Shown here: piece after piece, positions 14,821-28,182 of the stretch
Numbering within the stretch: position 1 is the stretch's first letter
Layout of the letters: every line of letters starts with the position of its first letter
Assembly (NCBI GenBank): GCA_029263215.1
Contig: JAJCXY010000078.1
Location: 1-64,000 of the forward strand
Length of the DNA: 64,000 bases
Origin: Acidimicrobiales bacterium
Lineage (GTDB): Bacteria; Actinomycetota; Acidimicrobiia; Acidimicrobiales; Aldehydirespiratoraceae
Direction: 5' to 3'
The notes under the pieces: model-generated
The model's input: the letters and a program-made list of their open reading frames with translations, nothing else
What the model was told of the DNA's origin: nothing
The model's database searches: none
Program-made: the position numbers and the translations under genes

Positions 14821-16251
14821 TCAGGGGATGCTCATCACGCGGATGGTGTCGGTGGCCAGCGTCTTGGTGGACTGACCCGAAATCACCACCACTCGCTCTC
14901 CGCTCTCCAACCCCATCTGGTCTCGGGCGATCCTCAATGCGTCGTCACGGATATCCGAAGCGCTCGAGCGCTCAGCGCTGAGCGCGGCACGGGTGCCCCA
15001 GCTCACCCCCAACTGGCGAACTGCGGTGGCATCGGGGCTGAAGGCCAGGATCGAAGTGCGAGGCCGGAACCGGGTGACCGATCGCACCGTGAAGCCCGTA
15101 CGCGACAAGCACAGGATCGCCCGAGCATCGATCTCCTCGGCAATCCTGCAGGCCGCGGACGTGAGGGCATCGGTGATCGCACGAGCCGGATCCACGAGTC
15201 CGTCGTCGTATTCGGTTTCATCGATCATTCTCGCCCACGCCTTGTGATCGAATTCCTCGTCGGCGCGGTTGATGATCTCCGCCATCGTGGCGACCGAGTT
15301 GACGGGGTCGACGCCGATGGCAGTCTCCCCCGAGAGCATCAGCGCACTCGAACCGTCGAATACGGCGTTGGCGACATCGGAAGCCTCGGCCCGGGTCGGG
15401 GTGGGCGCGTAGACCATCGACTCCAACATCTGGGTGGCGGTGATGACCGGGCGCCCCATCGCCAGACAGCGGCGGATGATGTGCTTCTGGAGGTGGGGGA
15501 GTTCGGAGAGCGCGAAGTCGGTGCCGAGATCGCCTCGCGCCACCATCACCCCTCCGCTGGCTTCGATGATCCCATCGAGATTGGTCACCGCGGCAGACGT
15601 TTCCACCTTGGCGATCAGCAGGGGACCCCTCGGCGCAGGCTCCACGCCCACGCGACGCATGTCGTGGGCCGATCGCACGAAAGACACCGCGATCATGTCG
15701 ACGCCTTCGTCGACGAACGCGTCGACAAGCCGGAGATCTTCGGGAGTGGGGGTCGGCAGGCCGAGGCGATCGGAGGGGATCTGCAGCCCGGGACGACCCT
15801 GGGCCCTTCCGCCCCGTAGCACCTTGACCGTCAACCCCTCGGCATCGACGGACTCGATGATCATGGCGATGTTGCCGTCGCCCAGGGCAACACGATCGCC
15901 GGCCTGCATTGTCTGCATCAAGCCGTCGTAGTCGACCGAAATTACCGCCGCCGTACTTGCGTCACGCCCGGTCGTGATGATGAGGTTCGCCCCATCGACT
16001 ATGTCGACTCCACCTTCCGCGAATGATGCACAACGTACCTTCGGGCCGGGCAGATCGACCAGGATCGATACCTCGGCACCCATTTCGTCAGCGGTGTGGC
16101 GGATGGAGTGGTAGCTGGCGAGGTGGTCCTCGAGTGTTCCGTGGGCCAGCCCGATTCGGGCCACGTTCATCCCAGCATCGATCATTTGCCGCAGGATGGG
16201 CGGGTCGAGAGAAGCCGGCCCCACGGTTGCCACGATCTTCGTACGTCGCAT
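14821..16251 (-). CDS. pyk: Pyruvate kinase, K+-independent type residues
   Basis: Converts phosphoenolpyruvate and ADP to pyruvate and ATP in glycolysis. The 476-residue protein has the core motifs KVET (substrate Lys), VARGDLG and ATQMLESM..PTRAEASDVANA. The region equivalent to DTKGPEIR reads DLPGPKVR. Lys instead of Glu and Leu instead of Thr there are reported marks of K+-independent enzymes. The usual NFSHG motif reads GLAHG, removing two further K+ ligands. ATG 16251 sits at better spacing from GGGGG than the ATG at 16254. The C-terminal allosteric-type domain is complete. Confidence 0.87.
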   Translation of the reverse strand: MRRTKIVATVGPASLDPPILRQMIDAGMNVARIGLAHGTLEDHLASYHSIRHTADEMGAEVSILVDLPGPKVRCASFAEGGVDIVDGANLIITTGRDASTAAVISVDYDGLMQTMQAGDRVALGDGNIAMIIESVDAEGLTVKVLRGGRAQGRPGLQIPSDRLGLPTPTPEDLRLVDAFVDEGVDMIAVSFVRSAHDMRRVGVEPAPRGPLLIAKVETSAAVTNLDGIIEASGGVMVARGDLGTDFALSELPHLQKHIIRRCLAMGRPVITATQMLESMVYAPTPTRAEASDVANAVFDGSSALMLSGETAIGVDPVNSVATMAEIINRADEEFDHKAWARMIDETEYDDGLVDPARAITDALTSAACRIAEEIDARAILCLSRTGFTVRSVTRFRPRTSILAFSPDATAVRQLGVSWGTRAALSAERSSASDIRDDALRIARDQMGLESGERVVVISGQSTKTLATDTIRVMSIP

Positions 16252-16393
16252 CATTCCCCCAGAATCCAGCTGCGCAATCGGTCCACCCTTTCACGTCTGA
16301 GGATCAACGTCTTCTGAGTCGGGGGAGCACGGGGAGCCCGATTCAGCCGGGTGAGACCTGTACAAGACTCGATGATGGTGGTCCACTGGTGAA

Positions 16394-17569
16394 GTGAGGG
16401 TCGTGGCCAGTGGGTTGGTGTCGCTGTCGATCGTGCTGGCCGGTTGTGGCTCCAGCGACGGCGCCGAAGTCGAGGAGACCCCCGTACCTGACGTCAGCGA
16501 CGAGACCCCGTCGGCCACCACGACAGACAACTCGACTCCGCCCGCCACGGCGGAACAGGACGCTCCGCCGGCTGCGGTGGCCATCGCTGCGGCCGCGGCC
16601 ACCGCCGGCGACACCTTCGACGAAGCGTTCTACGACCCCAACGCCGGGAACTTCCCGGCCCTCGACGACCCTGAGATGGTCGCCGCGTCGAGTGCTAGCT
16701 GGCTCGACCCCGGCGACATTGTGATGGGAATCGTGTCGGAGTCGGGCGAGGCGATGGCCTTCCCGGTCGATCAGATGGCGTACCACCATGTGGCCAACAC
16801 CCGACTGGCCGGCGAGCCGTTCGTGGTGACCTATTGAACGGTCTGCTCCAGCGGGATCGGTTTCGATCCCGTCGTGAACGAGGTGGCCCATACGTTCGAG
16901 ACCGCGGGCATCTACAACGGCTTGTTCGTCATGGCCGACCGCGAGACCGGGTCTGTGTGGACCCACTTCGACGGCACCGTGATCACCGGGCCACTGGCCG
17001 GTGCTGGCCTGGCGATGGAAATTCGGCCCCTGACCCACACCTCGTGGGGGAGCTGGCTCGAAGACCATGGCGACACGACGGTGCTCGCTCCGATCGAGCA
17101 ATACAAGGCCTGGTACGGCACCAGTGGATGGGGCGACGGCAACATCGGGGCCTCTTGGCTGGGCCCCCTGTTCTCCGACACCGTCATCAATGACGACGAC
17201 CGGCTGGCCGGTAATGAACTCGTTCTCGGAGCGGGGGTGGGCGACGACTTCCGGGCCTATTCCCTGGCGATGGTCGATGAACTCACCGTGATCCACGACG
17301 ATCTGGGAGGGCAGCCAGTGGTGGTGTTCCTCGACCCGGCGAACATGTTCGGATTGGCGTTCTCATCGGTGGTCGATGGTGAGGAGAGGCAGTTCTTCGT
17401 CGATGACGGAGAGGTATTCGACAGCCAGGGCACCCGCTGGCGCCTCGATGGCCATGGCACCGACGGACCCGATGAGGGCACCTCGCTGGAGTATGTGACC
17501 TCGTTCGTGACCGAGTGGTACGGCTGGGCGACCTATCACCCCGAAACCACGATCTACGGTTCGAGCTGA
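16394..17569 (+). CDS. DUF3179 lipoprotein, probable selenoprotein (in-frame TGA = Sec148)
   Basis: Read through the TGA at 16835-16837, this is one 391-residue protein. It has a signal peptide with lipobox VLAGC, a Thr/Pro/Ala linker, and a DUF3179 domain from about residue 95. Before the TGA come the family's MGIVSESGEAMAFPVDQ and HHVANTRLAG; after it come TVCSSGIGFDP and DRETGSVWTHFDG. Family members usually have TYCPLCG at the interruption, so the TGA replaces the first Cys of CxxC, giving Sec-x-x-Cys. No frameshift occurs and no start codon for a separate second gene is convincing. A SECIS-like hairpin follows. The function is unknown; an extracytoplasmic redox or metal-binding role is inferred. 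GTG start; weak ribosome binding site. Confidence 0.85.
16852..16871 (+). promoter_or_regulatory. Bacterial SECIS-like hairpin
   Basis: CGGGATCG (16852-16859) pairs perfectly with CGATCCCG (16864-16871) around the loop GTTT; a G-T pair can extend the stem outward. The stem begins 14 nt, and the loop 22 nt, after the in-frame TGA. This falls in the usual 16-37 nt window for bacterial SECIS loops, and the loop begins with the expected G. It lies within the coding sequence, as bacterial SECIS elements do. Confidence 0.75.
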
Positions 17570-17604: not shown

Positions 17605-18610
17605 TCTAGAACTGACGGACATCGTTGACAGTTGGGTCTCTTGATGAGAGAGAGATTCTATGAACGAACAAGAGCTCCAACGCCAGGCGAAGCATCGGTT
17701 GGCGATCCTTCGTCACTCTGAGGAGGTGTCGGGCAATGTCGCGGCGACGTGTCGTCACTACGGGATTAGCAGGACCCGGTTCTACAAGTGGCGGCGCCGT
17801 TATGACGATGAGGGTCTCAACGGGCTACGGGACCGTTCGACACGCCCCCACCACAGCCCGCTGGCGACCTCGAGCGAGGTGGTCGGAAAAGTCATCCATC
17901 TGCGCCAGACCTATCATTTCGGGCCGCTCAAGATCTCGATGTACCTCAAGCGCTACCACGACATCGACATCTCGCCGTCGGGGGTGTGGCGGATCCTCAA
18001 ACGTCTCGACATGAACCTGTTGCCGGCCTCGCAACGTCACAAGACCCACGCCAAACGATGGAAACGCTACGAAAAACAGCAGCCCGGTCACCGGGTCCAG
18101 ATCGACGTGAAGTTCATCGAGCCGCTCAAAGGCTCACGAAAGACCAAGTACTACCAATACACCGCGATCGATGACTGCACCCGACTACGAGTCCTGAAGA
18201 TCTACGACCGCAACAACCAGAAAACCGCGATCCAGTTCCTCGACTACGTCTGCCAGAAACTCCCCTTCGCGGTCGAAGTCATCCAGACCGACAACGGCTC
18301 CGAATTCGCCAGCCAATTCCACTGGCACGTCCTGGACCGCGGCATCCGCCACGTCTACATCAAACCCGCCACCCCAAGACTCAACGGCAAAGTCGAAAGA
18401 TCACACCGCATCGACGGCGAAGAGTTCTACCGGCTCCTCGACGGCGTCGTCATCGACGACACCGAACTCTTCAACGACAAACTCGCCCAATGGGAGAACT
18501 TCTACAACTTCGACCGACCCCACGGCAGCCTCGATGGACAAACCCCATACGAACGACTACGACAAAAGACAACCGAGGCCCCGCTGTAACGCAAGACCGT
18601 CAGTTGCACA
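17605..18610 (+). mobile_element. IS481-family insertion sequence
   Basis: The 1006-bp element starts TCTAGAACTGACGG and ends with the complement of TGTGCAACTGACGG. These imperfect terminal inverted repeats share AACTGACGG, and the right end has the TGT tip usual for this family. It is bracketed by a 15-bp direct repeat and carries one intact transposase gene. It inserted at the 3' end of tRNA-Pro; the duplication restored the tRNA sequence. Confidence 0.85.
17660..18589 (+). CDS. IS481-family transposase
   Basis: 309-residue DDE transposase. The N-terminal helix-turn-helix (residues about 12-60, RHYGISRTRFYKWRRRYD) would bind the element ends. The integrase core has D149 (QIDVKFI), D211 (QTDNGSEF) and E246 (NGKVERSHR), with 34 residues between the last two as expected. 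The C-terminus has the YNFDRPHGSLDGQTPYERL motif found in IS481 and related families. The frame is intact, so the element may be active. It lies wholly within the IS. Confidence 0.93.
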   Translation: MNEQELQRQAKHRLAILRHSEEVSGNVAATCRHYGISRTRFYKWRRRYDDEGLNGLRDRSTRPHHSPLATSSEVVGKVIHLRQTYHFGPLKISMYLKRYHDIDISPSGVWRILKRLDMNLLPASQRHKTHAKRWKRYEKQQPGHRVQIDVKFIEPLKGSRKTKYYQYTAIDDCTRLRVLKIYDRNNQKTAIQFLDYVCQKLPFAVEVIQTDNGSEFASQFHWHVLDRGIRHVYIKPATPRLNGKVERSHRIDGEEFYRLLDGVVIDDTELFNDKLAQWENFYNFDRPHGSLDGQTPYERLRQKTTEAPL

Positions 18611-26463: not shown

Positions 26464-28182
26464 TCAGAGTTCCGGCAAGCGGGGACCACCGATCCTCAGA
26501 TCCCCGCGGCGTCGGGTGACCCCGGTGCTGTCGAGACGAGTGATGAGGGGGATAGCGAACTTACGGGTGGTGGCCCATGCGTCGCGGGCTTCGGCCACGG
26601 TGATCCCATCGGGCTGAGCCTTGAGGAGTTGGGCAACGACGCGAGCAGCGTCGTCGATGGCGGTGGCCGCGAAATACACGCCGCCCTCCTCCACGATGTC
26701 GCCGCGGCGCACGAGCTCACGAAGCTCGGCACGGTCTATGCCCTCGGGGTCGGGAGGTGAGAATGGCTCGGCGGCGAGTAGATCCACAAAGGAGTGGCCG
26801 GCGAGAGGGTCGGCCGCGGCCGCAGGGCGGGCGTGGCCGCCTTCTATCGCCACCGCCTCGAGAGTGTCGAGAACAGCTCTCTCGAACTCGTCGAGTCCGG
26901 CGATGTCGAGCCCGAGGGCGTCGGCGCGGTGGACCGCCTCGGCGAGGCGTTTCTCGACCGCGTCCAGGGCGGCGGGATCGACCACCCATCTCCCGACGTC
27001 GGGCTGATGCCGCTCACCCGTGAACCGCTCGAGCTGGTCGGCATCCACCCGACCGCGTTCGGCGACGAGGCGCTCCGCTCTCTTGTCGGGGCTGGCCTTG
27101 GAAGCGGCGATGATCGGGTCGACGTCGAGGATCTCACCCCCACCGAGGGTAACCCCTTGGCCCGACTCGCGAAGTATGAAGCGGTCGCCGATCACGAGTG
27201 GCAGACCGGCGGGGAGATGGAGCCGCACCGCACCGCTGTGTCCGGGTTCGATCGTGTCGGGTCCGAGCACGCGCATCTGCACAGGGTGTTCCCCCGACCC
27301 TATGTAGGCGACGTGAGCTCCCCGCCTGCTCACCGCCCGATCGAGGGAGTCGAGCACGTTCAATGAGCCGTCCACACGAGTGGTGATGTGCCACTGGTCG
27401 GCGCGGATCAACACGTCGCCTCGCTTGAGCTCATCGTGACTCACCCCGGAGAGGTTTGCGGCAACCCGGTTGCCGGGGCCGACCTTGGTGCGGTCGGCGT
27501 GGAGGCTCTGCAGGGCGCGGACCCTCACCGGGCGTTGTGCGGGAGCCACCTCGAGCTCGTCGTCGACGCGGATCATCCCGCCCGTGAGGGTGCCGGTGAC
27601 CACGGTGCCAGCGCCCTTTGCGGCGAATACGCGGTCGATCCACAGGCGGGGGCGCTTCCGATCGATCGCGGTGGGTGTTGTGTCCGTCAAAGTGTCGAGA
27701 GCGTCGGCGATGTCGTCGACGCCCACACCGTCGATGGCATCTACGCCCACGATCGGGGCATCAGCGAGGAAGGTGCCGCCCACCCGGTCGCTGATCTCGA
27801 GCATGGCCAGCTCAACCAGCTCGTCGTCGGCCTGGCCGATCTTGGTCAAGGCGATGAGTCCGTGCTCGATTCCGAGCAGGGAGAGGATCCGCAGGTGCTC
27901 TTCGGATTGGGGCTTCCACCCTTCGGTTGCGGCGACAACGAAGAGGCAGGCATCGACGCCGCCCACACCGGCAAGCATGTTCTTCAAGAAGCGCACGTGG
28001 CCGGGCACATCGATGAACGACACGCCGCGGCCCGACGGCAGCTTCATGCCCGCGAAGCCAAGGTCGATGGTGAGCCCCCTGGCCTTCTCCTCGGCCAGTC
28101 GGTCCGGGTCGGTGCCGGTGAGGGCGGTTATGAGGGTCGACTTGCCGTGATCCACGTGGCCTGCGGTGGCGACGACGTGCAT
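26464..28182 (-). CDS. selB: Selenocysteine-specific translation elongation factor SelB
   Basis: 572-residue translational GTPase that delivers Sec-tRNA to UGA codons marked by a SECIS hairpin. G1 is AGHVDHGKST (residues about 7-16), switch II is DVPGHVRFLKNM, and the KARGLTIDLGFA segment is typical of SelB rather than EF-Tu. Two EF-Tu-like beta domains and SelB domain IV follow. The C-terminal winged helices (about residues 400-572) bind the SECIS RNA. The ATG shares one base with the selA stop codon (TGATG), so the genes are translationally coupled. The frame extends upstream through selA in another reading, which is not coding. Confidence 0.95.
   Translation of the reverse strand: MHVVATAGHVDHGKSTLITALTGTDPDRLAEEKARGLTIDLGFAGMKLPSGRGVSFIDVPGHVRFLKNMLAGVGGVDACLFVVAATEGWKPQSEEHLRILSLLGIEHGLIALTKIGQADDELVELAMLEISDRVGGTFLADAPIVGVDAIDGVGVDDIADALDTLTDTTPTAIDRKRPRLWIDRVFAAKGAGTVVTGTLTGGMIRVDDELEVAPAQRPVRVRALQSLHADRTKVGPGNRVAANLSGVSHDELKRGDVLIRADQWHITTRVDGSLNVLDSLDRAVSRRGAHVAYIGSGEHPVQMRVLGPDTIEPGHSGAVRLHLPAGLPLVIGDRFILRESGQGVTLGGGEILDVDPIIAASKASPDKRAERLVAERGRVDADQLERFTGERHQPDVGRWVVDPAALDAVEKRLAEAVHRADALGLDIAGLDEFERAVLDTLEAVAIEGGHARPAAAADPLAGHSFVDLLAAEPFSPPDPEGIDRAELRELVRRGDIVEEGGVYFAATAIDDAARVVAQLLKAQPDGITVAEARDAWATTRKFAIPLITRLDSTGVTRRRGDLRIGGPRLPEL

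Follow-up and report, generated by a model that had tools for sequence, protein, structure and literature searches.

Comparative evidence that a DUF3179 gene of an Acidimicrobiales genome encodes a member of a known selenoprotein family

DUF3179 (pfam11376), with the motif UxxC/T, is among the known bacterial selenoprotein families tabulated in PMC9312934 (2022) and PMC13188914 (2026), both of which refer for this family to the 2007 paper of Zhang and Gladyshev on the Olavius algarvensis symbiont. In PMC9230427 a DUF3179 protein appears only as a table entry, and DUF3179, an uncharacterised and probably extracytoplasmic family, is nearly absent from the open literature. A literature search combining selenoprotein or selenocysteine with Acidimicrobi returned, as judged from the listings, no paper on a DUF3179 selenoprotein in this class. 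The first-pass annotation of the locus described here had proposed a probable new selenoprotein, a claim of novelty that the two published tables overturn: the protein is a member of a known selenoprotein family, extending its range and anatomy. New here are the Acidimicrobiia members, a nearly all-Sec subfamily that we call the HH type, a parallel Sec subfamily, and evidence for an internal duplication with a Rieske-like unit.

The gene lies in the window, by which we mean the whole 64,000-nucleotide stretch of Acidimicrobiales DNA that was analysed. The reading frame 16394-17569 holds a single internal stop, the TGA at 16835-16837, which falls at residue 148 of the translation; the ORF ending there is 147 amino acids long. 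The only Pfam match of the product, to PF11376 (DUF3179) at 205 bits against a cut-off of 27, covers residues 86-385 and so runs across the TGA, where the motif reads VTYU-TV-C with U in the place of the first Cys of C-x-x-C. Cys18, U148 and Cys151 are the only Cys or Sec residues of the whole protein. The open frame with DUF3179 features on both sides of the TGA, the position of the TGA within the motif, a G-loop hairpin within SECIS distance and the presence in the window of selA, selB and tRNA-Sec had all been noted in the first-pass annotation, and all of them were borne out. The features are as follows:

16394..17569, + strand: DUF3179 gene, read as a selenoprotein gene; 391 amino acids with Sec148, GTG start, TGA stop at 17567-17569
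16394..16447, + strand: putative lipoprotein signal peptide with lipobox LAGC (residues 15-18, Cys18), recognised by eye; the N-termini of relatives are similar
16784..16789, + strand: His131-His132, invariant across the HH subfamily alignments and predicted to lie opposite U148 across a beta hairpin
16835..16837, + strand: Sec-UGA codon (U148), first position of U-x-x-C
16844..16846, + strand: Cys151 (TGC), second position of U-x-x-C, invariant in alignment A2
16851..16872, + strand: bacterial SECIS hairpin; 16852-16858 pairs with 16865-16871 as the core stem, around the loop 16859-16864 with G first
26464..28182, - strand: selB (Sec-specific elongation factor), 273.4 bits against a cut-off of 242.25; SelB winged helix
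28182..29444, - strand: selA (Sec synthase), PF03841 at 309.6 bits
44215..44310, - strand: tRNA-Sec (selC), anticodon UCA, RF01852 at 64 bits against a cut-off of 47

From its lipobox the product would be a probable surface lipoprotein with a membrane anchor. No NCBIfam model comes near its cut-off for the window protein or for a second Sec-containing DUF3179 protein of the same genome (the WUPLC protein, below), so that genes of this kind probably escape annotation or are entered as truncated. The window protein gives two NCBIfam matches below cut-off (E 0.035 and 0.047), one of them to a (seleno)lipoprotein model and confined to the leader (residues 9-70). Phage sequences gave no match to it, and the 27 plasmid records that match are all under 60% identity, none of them covering 80% of the query. 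The upstream neighbour is a pyruvate kinase gene (14821-16254), and an IS481-type transposase gene (17660-18589) lies directly downstream; these neighbours give no hint of function, and mechanically picked ORFs around 15 related loci showed, by eye, no shared partner gene.

To follow the TGA through relatives, we scanned genome contigs with an alignment of eight relatives and the peptide patterns WTH[YF]DG[TKS]V and [QM][ML][AST][YF]HH[IV][AV]N, both of which lie off the U column. At that column TGA was found in 30 of 31 loci, which come from 30 genomes, and Cys in one (L107, titled Planctomycetia); the count includes two loci at contig ends (L108, L110), a partial match (L109) and a decayed copy (L093), all four with TGA. 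By submitters' titles, some of which disagree with the genome grouping, the loci belong to Acidimicrobiia/Actinomycetota, Chloroflexi, Acidobacteria, Planctomycetota and one Acidaminobacter; the sequence of L083, titled Acidobacteria, is identical to that of L051 from genome G278, which is grouped with the same class. As the TGA is common to loci of 30 genomes, a sequencing error at 16837, a concern of the first-pass annotation, is excluded.

Within the class, at least 7 of 395 genomes, the own genome included, have a match above 300 bits, a figure from which copies may be missing because at most four first-look candidates were scored per genome (five in the WUPLC search below). All seven have exactly one TGA, at the U column, and the remaining matches listed reach at most 136 bits and have no stop inside. 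In the family of the window organism the gene is rare: 2 of 51 genomes have it, the own genome and G027. The G027 copy (L009/L093, G027:C10 941869-942720) retains the Sec TGA and much the greater part of the hairpin, but with a second in-frame stop, a TAA, and a 3' end that has diverged it looks decayed.

Ungapped comparison of close pairs places the differences mostly at codon position 3 on both sides of the TGA. Between L081 and L082 there are 5, 4 and 25 differences at positions 1, 2 and 3 in the 60 codons before the TGA and 5, 3 and 28 in the 74 after it; between the window gene and L093 the figures are 11, 12 and 29 in 55 codons before and 27, 15 and 44 in 74 codons after. In two more distant pairs with the window gene the position-3 bias is weaker and still present.

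Several other TGA readings were considered and set aside. Genome-wide recoding of TGA was rejected, as the window gene itself ends in TGA and four of the seven DUF3179 matches of the genome have no internal stop. Matches flagged for TGA in G691, G788, G042 and G021 are not Sec forms and have Cys at the site, and one in G006:C273, which spans only query residues 181-243 and lies past the site, was not counted as Sec.

The bSECIS rules as given in PMC13188914 (Fig. 2 legend) allow a loop of 3-9 nt (G in its first two positions), a stem of 4-16 bp, a distance of 16-37 nt from the UGA and an energy of at most -7.5. The hairpin at 16851-16872 satisfies them with a 9-bp stem, a 4-nt loop GUUU, a distance of 22 nt and -15.2 kcal/mol; it can alternatively be described as 7 bp with loop GGUUUC, 21 nt from the UGA. 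The rules are permissive, being passed by 623 of 4938 in-frame codons (12.6%) in 10 window genes, among which 15 of the 4938 are followed by hairpins as stable as this one. Shuffles of single sequences make the fold unexceptional (z -1.56 for the window, -0.7 to -1.6 across four sequences), and Rfam gives only chance-level matches at the hairpin (E 2.8 and 3.3).

Given this permissiveness, selection on the stem was tested separately, against a null in which codons were swapped for synonyms drawn from each gene's own usage. The sequences in these and the covariation tests are related, so that the zero counts are not independent probabilities: in 23 SSG/NSG-type sequences 154 of 161 stem pairs are kept against 106±4.4 in the null (0/5000), and in eight CHTG-type relatives, which have a different hairpin at a spacing of 16 nt, the lower limit of the rules, 56 of 56 are kept against 47.6±1.9 (0/5000). 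L107, the Cys relative, was tested apart; it pairs as the null does (4 of 7 against 4.1±0.9), and none of its hairpins passes the bSECIS rules. The hairpin of L109, a locus outside both Sec groups of this test, passes them.

In the 23-row alignment two pairs are changed on both sides, from G-C to A-U in three rows and from C-G to U-A in five. With the same reservation about relatedness, the covariation score of 0.283 exceeds the 0.203±0.020 of shuffles (0/500), more cells are paired than in shuffles (0/500), and eight cells have both sides changed against 3.1 (2/500). There is no excess of pairs in which both sides changed (2 against 2.1, 398/500 shuffles) or of further pair types (7 against 7.3, 403/500). 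This comparison of sequences shows the hairpin to be under selection at the RNA level, kept beyond the needs of the protein.

The own genome has a second DUF3179 Sec gene, at G000:C108 50478-51491 on the minus strand (L039 3479-4492; PF11376 at 173 bits), with TGA at the same column in the motif SWU-PL-C. Among the 395 class genomes, with at most five candidates scored per genome, this WUPLC type gave at least 47 matches above 240 bits in at least 41 genomes. All of the 47 matches listed were read at the column, where 43 have TGA and 4 have Cys, so that TGA and Cys alternate here as they do among the 31 loci of the contig scan, the sign of Sec to which the first-pass annotation had looked. A 61% match in G278:C246 (238.6 bits), which starts past the site, was left out of this count. 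Both types occur together in at least three of the seven HH genomes (G000, G278, G193).

In most rows the WUPLC stem is CGGCGAUG paired with CAUCGCCG. It is a full 8 bp in all 43 TGA forms, which with the caution just given for related sequences amounts to 344 of 344 pairs against 238±6.3 in the null (0/3000); of the four Cys forms one has the full stem, and together they keep 24 of 32 pairs (null 19.8±1.8, reached in 66/3000). In the own C108 gene, 60 bases fold at minimum energy into another hairpin; the 8-bp stem can form there and passes the rules. At one locus (L189, G159:C19 81000-83500) a Sec and a Cys copy stand side by side, and the Cys copy keeps the full stem, which would fit a recent replacement of Sec by Cys or a gene conversion.

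For a tree in which the U/C column was masked, we used 101 of the 120 distinct sequences extracted by motif and a quick method with SH-aLRT support only; three partial rows and near-duplicates of 16 named loci were left out, and loci lacking the motif were never extracted. Labelled as Sec (63) or Cys (38), its rows require 7 changes, at least 4 of them forced by strongly supported branches, against an average of 30.8 when the labels are shuffled (0/500 as low). The window gene stands inside a 14-row set that is all Sec (support 100). The Planctomycetota loci L098 (Sec) and L107 (Cys) are sisters (support 100), and the phylum's Cys rows L113 (HH) and L115 (YH) group together elsewhere in the tree. 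WUPLC is a separate clade of 42 rows, 38 of them Sec (support 100), and the place of L109 is unsure because its branch is very long. The comparison shows exchange of Sec and Cys at the U column, and the tree fits gain and loss alike.

The residues 17 and 16 positions before the U/C column differ among these groups. All 27 HH rows have H/H, the His at -16 being part of what defines this group; 31 of the 32 remaining Cys rows have H/E, and in all 42 WUPLC rows an R, H or K is followed by E.

The own genome holds the full set of selA, selB, selC and selD, the last on another contig (L205, G000:C18 50460-51386). Close to the N-terminus of this SelD the frame is again crossed by a TGA, a frequent feature of SelD, and the protein is probably also a selenoprotein. 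SelA was sought in 31 genomes, namely the 30 of the contig scan (one with the Cys form) and G273: it is above cut-off in 27, present only as a sub-cut-off fragment in two and absent from two, against 1 of 14 control genomes. Of the 395 class genomes 280 exceed the Rfam cut-off for tRNA-Sec, as do 5 of 14 controls, so that co-occurrence of the machinery within the class says little; these numbers suggest that selenocysteine use is common in the class, and 280 of 395 may be too high given the 5 of 14 controls.

On the conservation of the TGA, its alternation with Cys, the selection on the SECIS hairpin and the complete machinery, we conclude that the window gene is almost certainly a genuine selenoprotein gene with Sec at U148. 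The UGA at 16835-16837 would be decoded as Sec by the SelA, SelB and tRNA-Sec of the window together with the SelD encoded elsewhere in the genome, with the hairpin at 16851-16872 directing insertion. The product would be an extracytoplasmic DUF3179 protein, lipid-anchored if its leader works as it reads, in which the first repeat of the domain bears the redox pair U148-x-x-C151. His131 and His132, across a beta hairpin from U148, would probably activate the selenolate, and the pair may cycle through a selenenyl-sulphide bond in a thiol/selenol oxidoreductase.

The repeats emerged from alignment A2: hhalign of its two halves (columns 100-245 and 285-427) gives a probability of 99.8% and E 4e-30, from which we take the DUF3179 domain to be an internal tandem duplication. 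U/C-x-x-C is found in the first repeat only. Two AlphaFold models, of residues 81-391 (pLDDT 91.2) and 93-232 (95.7), are confident, and in both the strand that ends at U148 is joined with the HH stretch in a beta hairpin. The register of the two strands was deduced from DSSP of the predicted models, and in that register His131 would face U148.

Searched with Foldseek, the full model finds Rieske-domain proteins first (3gce, probability 1.00, E 7.3e-3), and the first repeat finds 3c0d and 5bok, also at probability 1.00, with E between 1.3e-2 and 2.9e-2 and rmsd 3.2-3.6 across some 90 columns; no match of either query reaches E 0.001. Profiles of the two repeats against the 12 Rieske domains of the own genome give a probability of 0.3% for the first and 2.7% for the second, and the A2 profile finds nothing under E 0.6 among PDB sequences. 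A Rieske [2Fe-2S] protein was rejected, as the C-x-H / C-x2-H ligands are absent and the sequence profiles disagree. With E above 0.001, disagreeing profiles and missing ligands, the Rieske resemblance is a lead only. It is rather unlikely that DUF3179 derives from the Rieske fold by tandem duplication, having no Fe-S ligands but a Sec/Cys-x-x-Cys centre with a His/His or His/Glu pair nearby. If this were so, Sec forms would have arisen or persisted in at least two parallel subfamilies (HH and WUPLC), and the protein would be a Rieske-fold selenoprotein, with its selenolate possibly at an extracytoplasmic metal or electron-transfer site.

We give a low probability to U148, C151, His131 and His132 forming a metal site, of copper, mercury or Fe-S type, on a Rieske-like scaffold, where the protein, still a selenoprotein, would serve metal binding or electron transfer and not thiol redox. 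The leading place of Rieske-domain proteins in both Foldseek searches favours this, as does the near constancy, among HH and canonical rows alike, of His at -17 and of His or Glu at -16, but the E values and profile probabilities just given, the absent Rieske motif, and UxxC being a common redox motif among selenoproteins in the table of PMC2398784 weigh against it. A function as an extracytoplasmic selenol/thiol redox protein is the probable one.

Two further alternatives deny Sec, or regular Sec, at the TGA. Sec decoding of UGA competes with termination, and an in-frame GTG at 16874 (231 amino acids) follows the hairpin, from which the TGA might be a regulated stop, with Sec insertion rare and a functional 147-residue or downstream-start product; this is highly improbable, since the TGA sits inside the first domain repeat, and those relatives that have Cys at the column lack a stop there by which the product could be shortened. 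That the gene is a decaying pseudogene with an ordinary stop, as the state of its only same-family relative of this type (G027) might suggest, is less probable still, as 30 of 31 loci share the single TGA at this column, the protein sequence is constrained before and after it, and the hairpin is maintained.

Read as a selenoprotein gene, the locus adds to a comparative set of two Sec subfamilies with TGA and Cys forms and with hairpins kept and lost, and the two Sec paralogues in one genome, together with the predicted active-site set (U148, C151, His131, His132), make the function testable. Compared with the published DUF3179 selenoprotein family, the window protein has the same PF11376 domain and the same U-x-x-C motif (TYUTVC) and is likewise bacterial. 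The tabulated examples MBW1804167.1 and MDJ0986319.1 may belong to the HH, the WUPLC or another type, and the window protein is an HH-type member with a lipobox in an Acidimicrobiia genome. The canonical Cys-form DUF3179 proteins (CPLC, preceded by HE), of which there are several per genome, share the Pfam domain and have CxxC in the same place, but carry Cys for Sec and, in 31 of 32 rows, Glu for the second His at -16. The WUPLC type resembles the window gene in having Sec at the same column and a hairpin of its own, and differs in forming a separate clade, in having E at -16 after an R, H or K at -17, and in its stem. Rieske-fold proteins such as NirD and the Rieske ferredoxins resemble the first repeat in Foldseek, with probabilities up to 1.00, whereas the window protein lacks their cluster motif, the E values stay above 0.001 and the profiles show no similarity.
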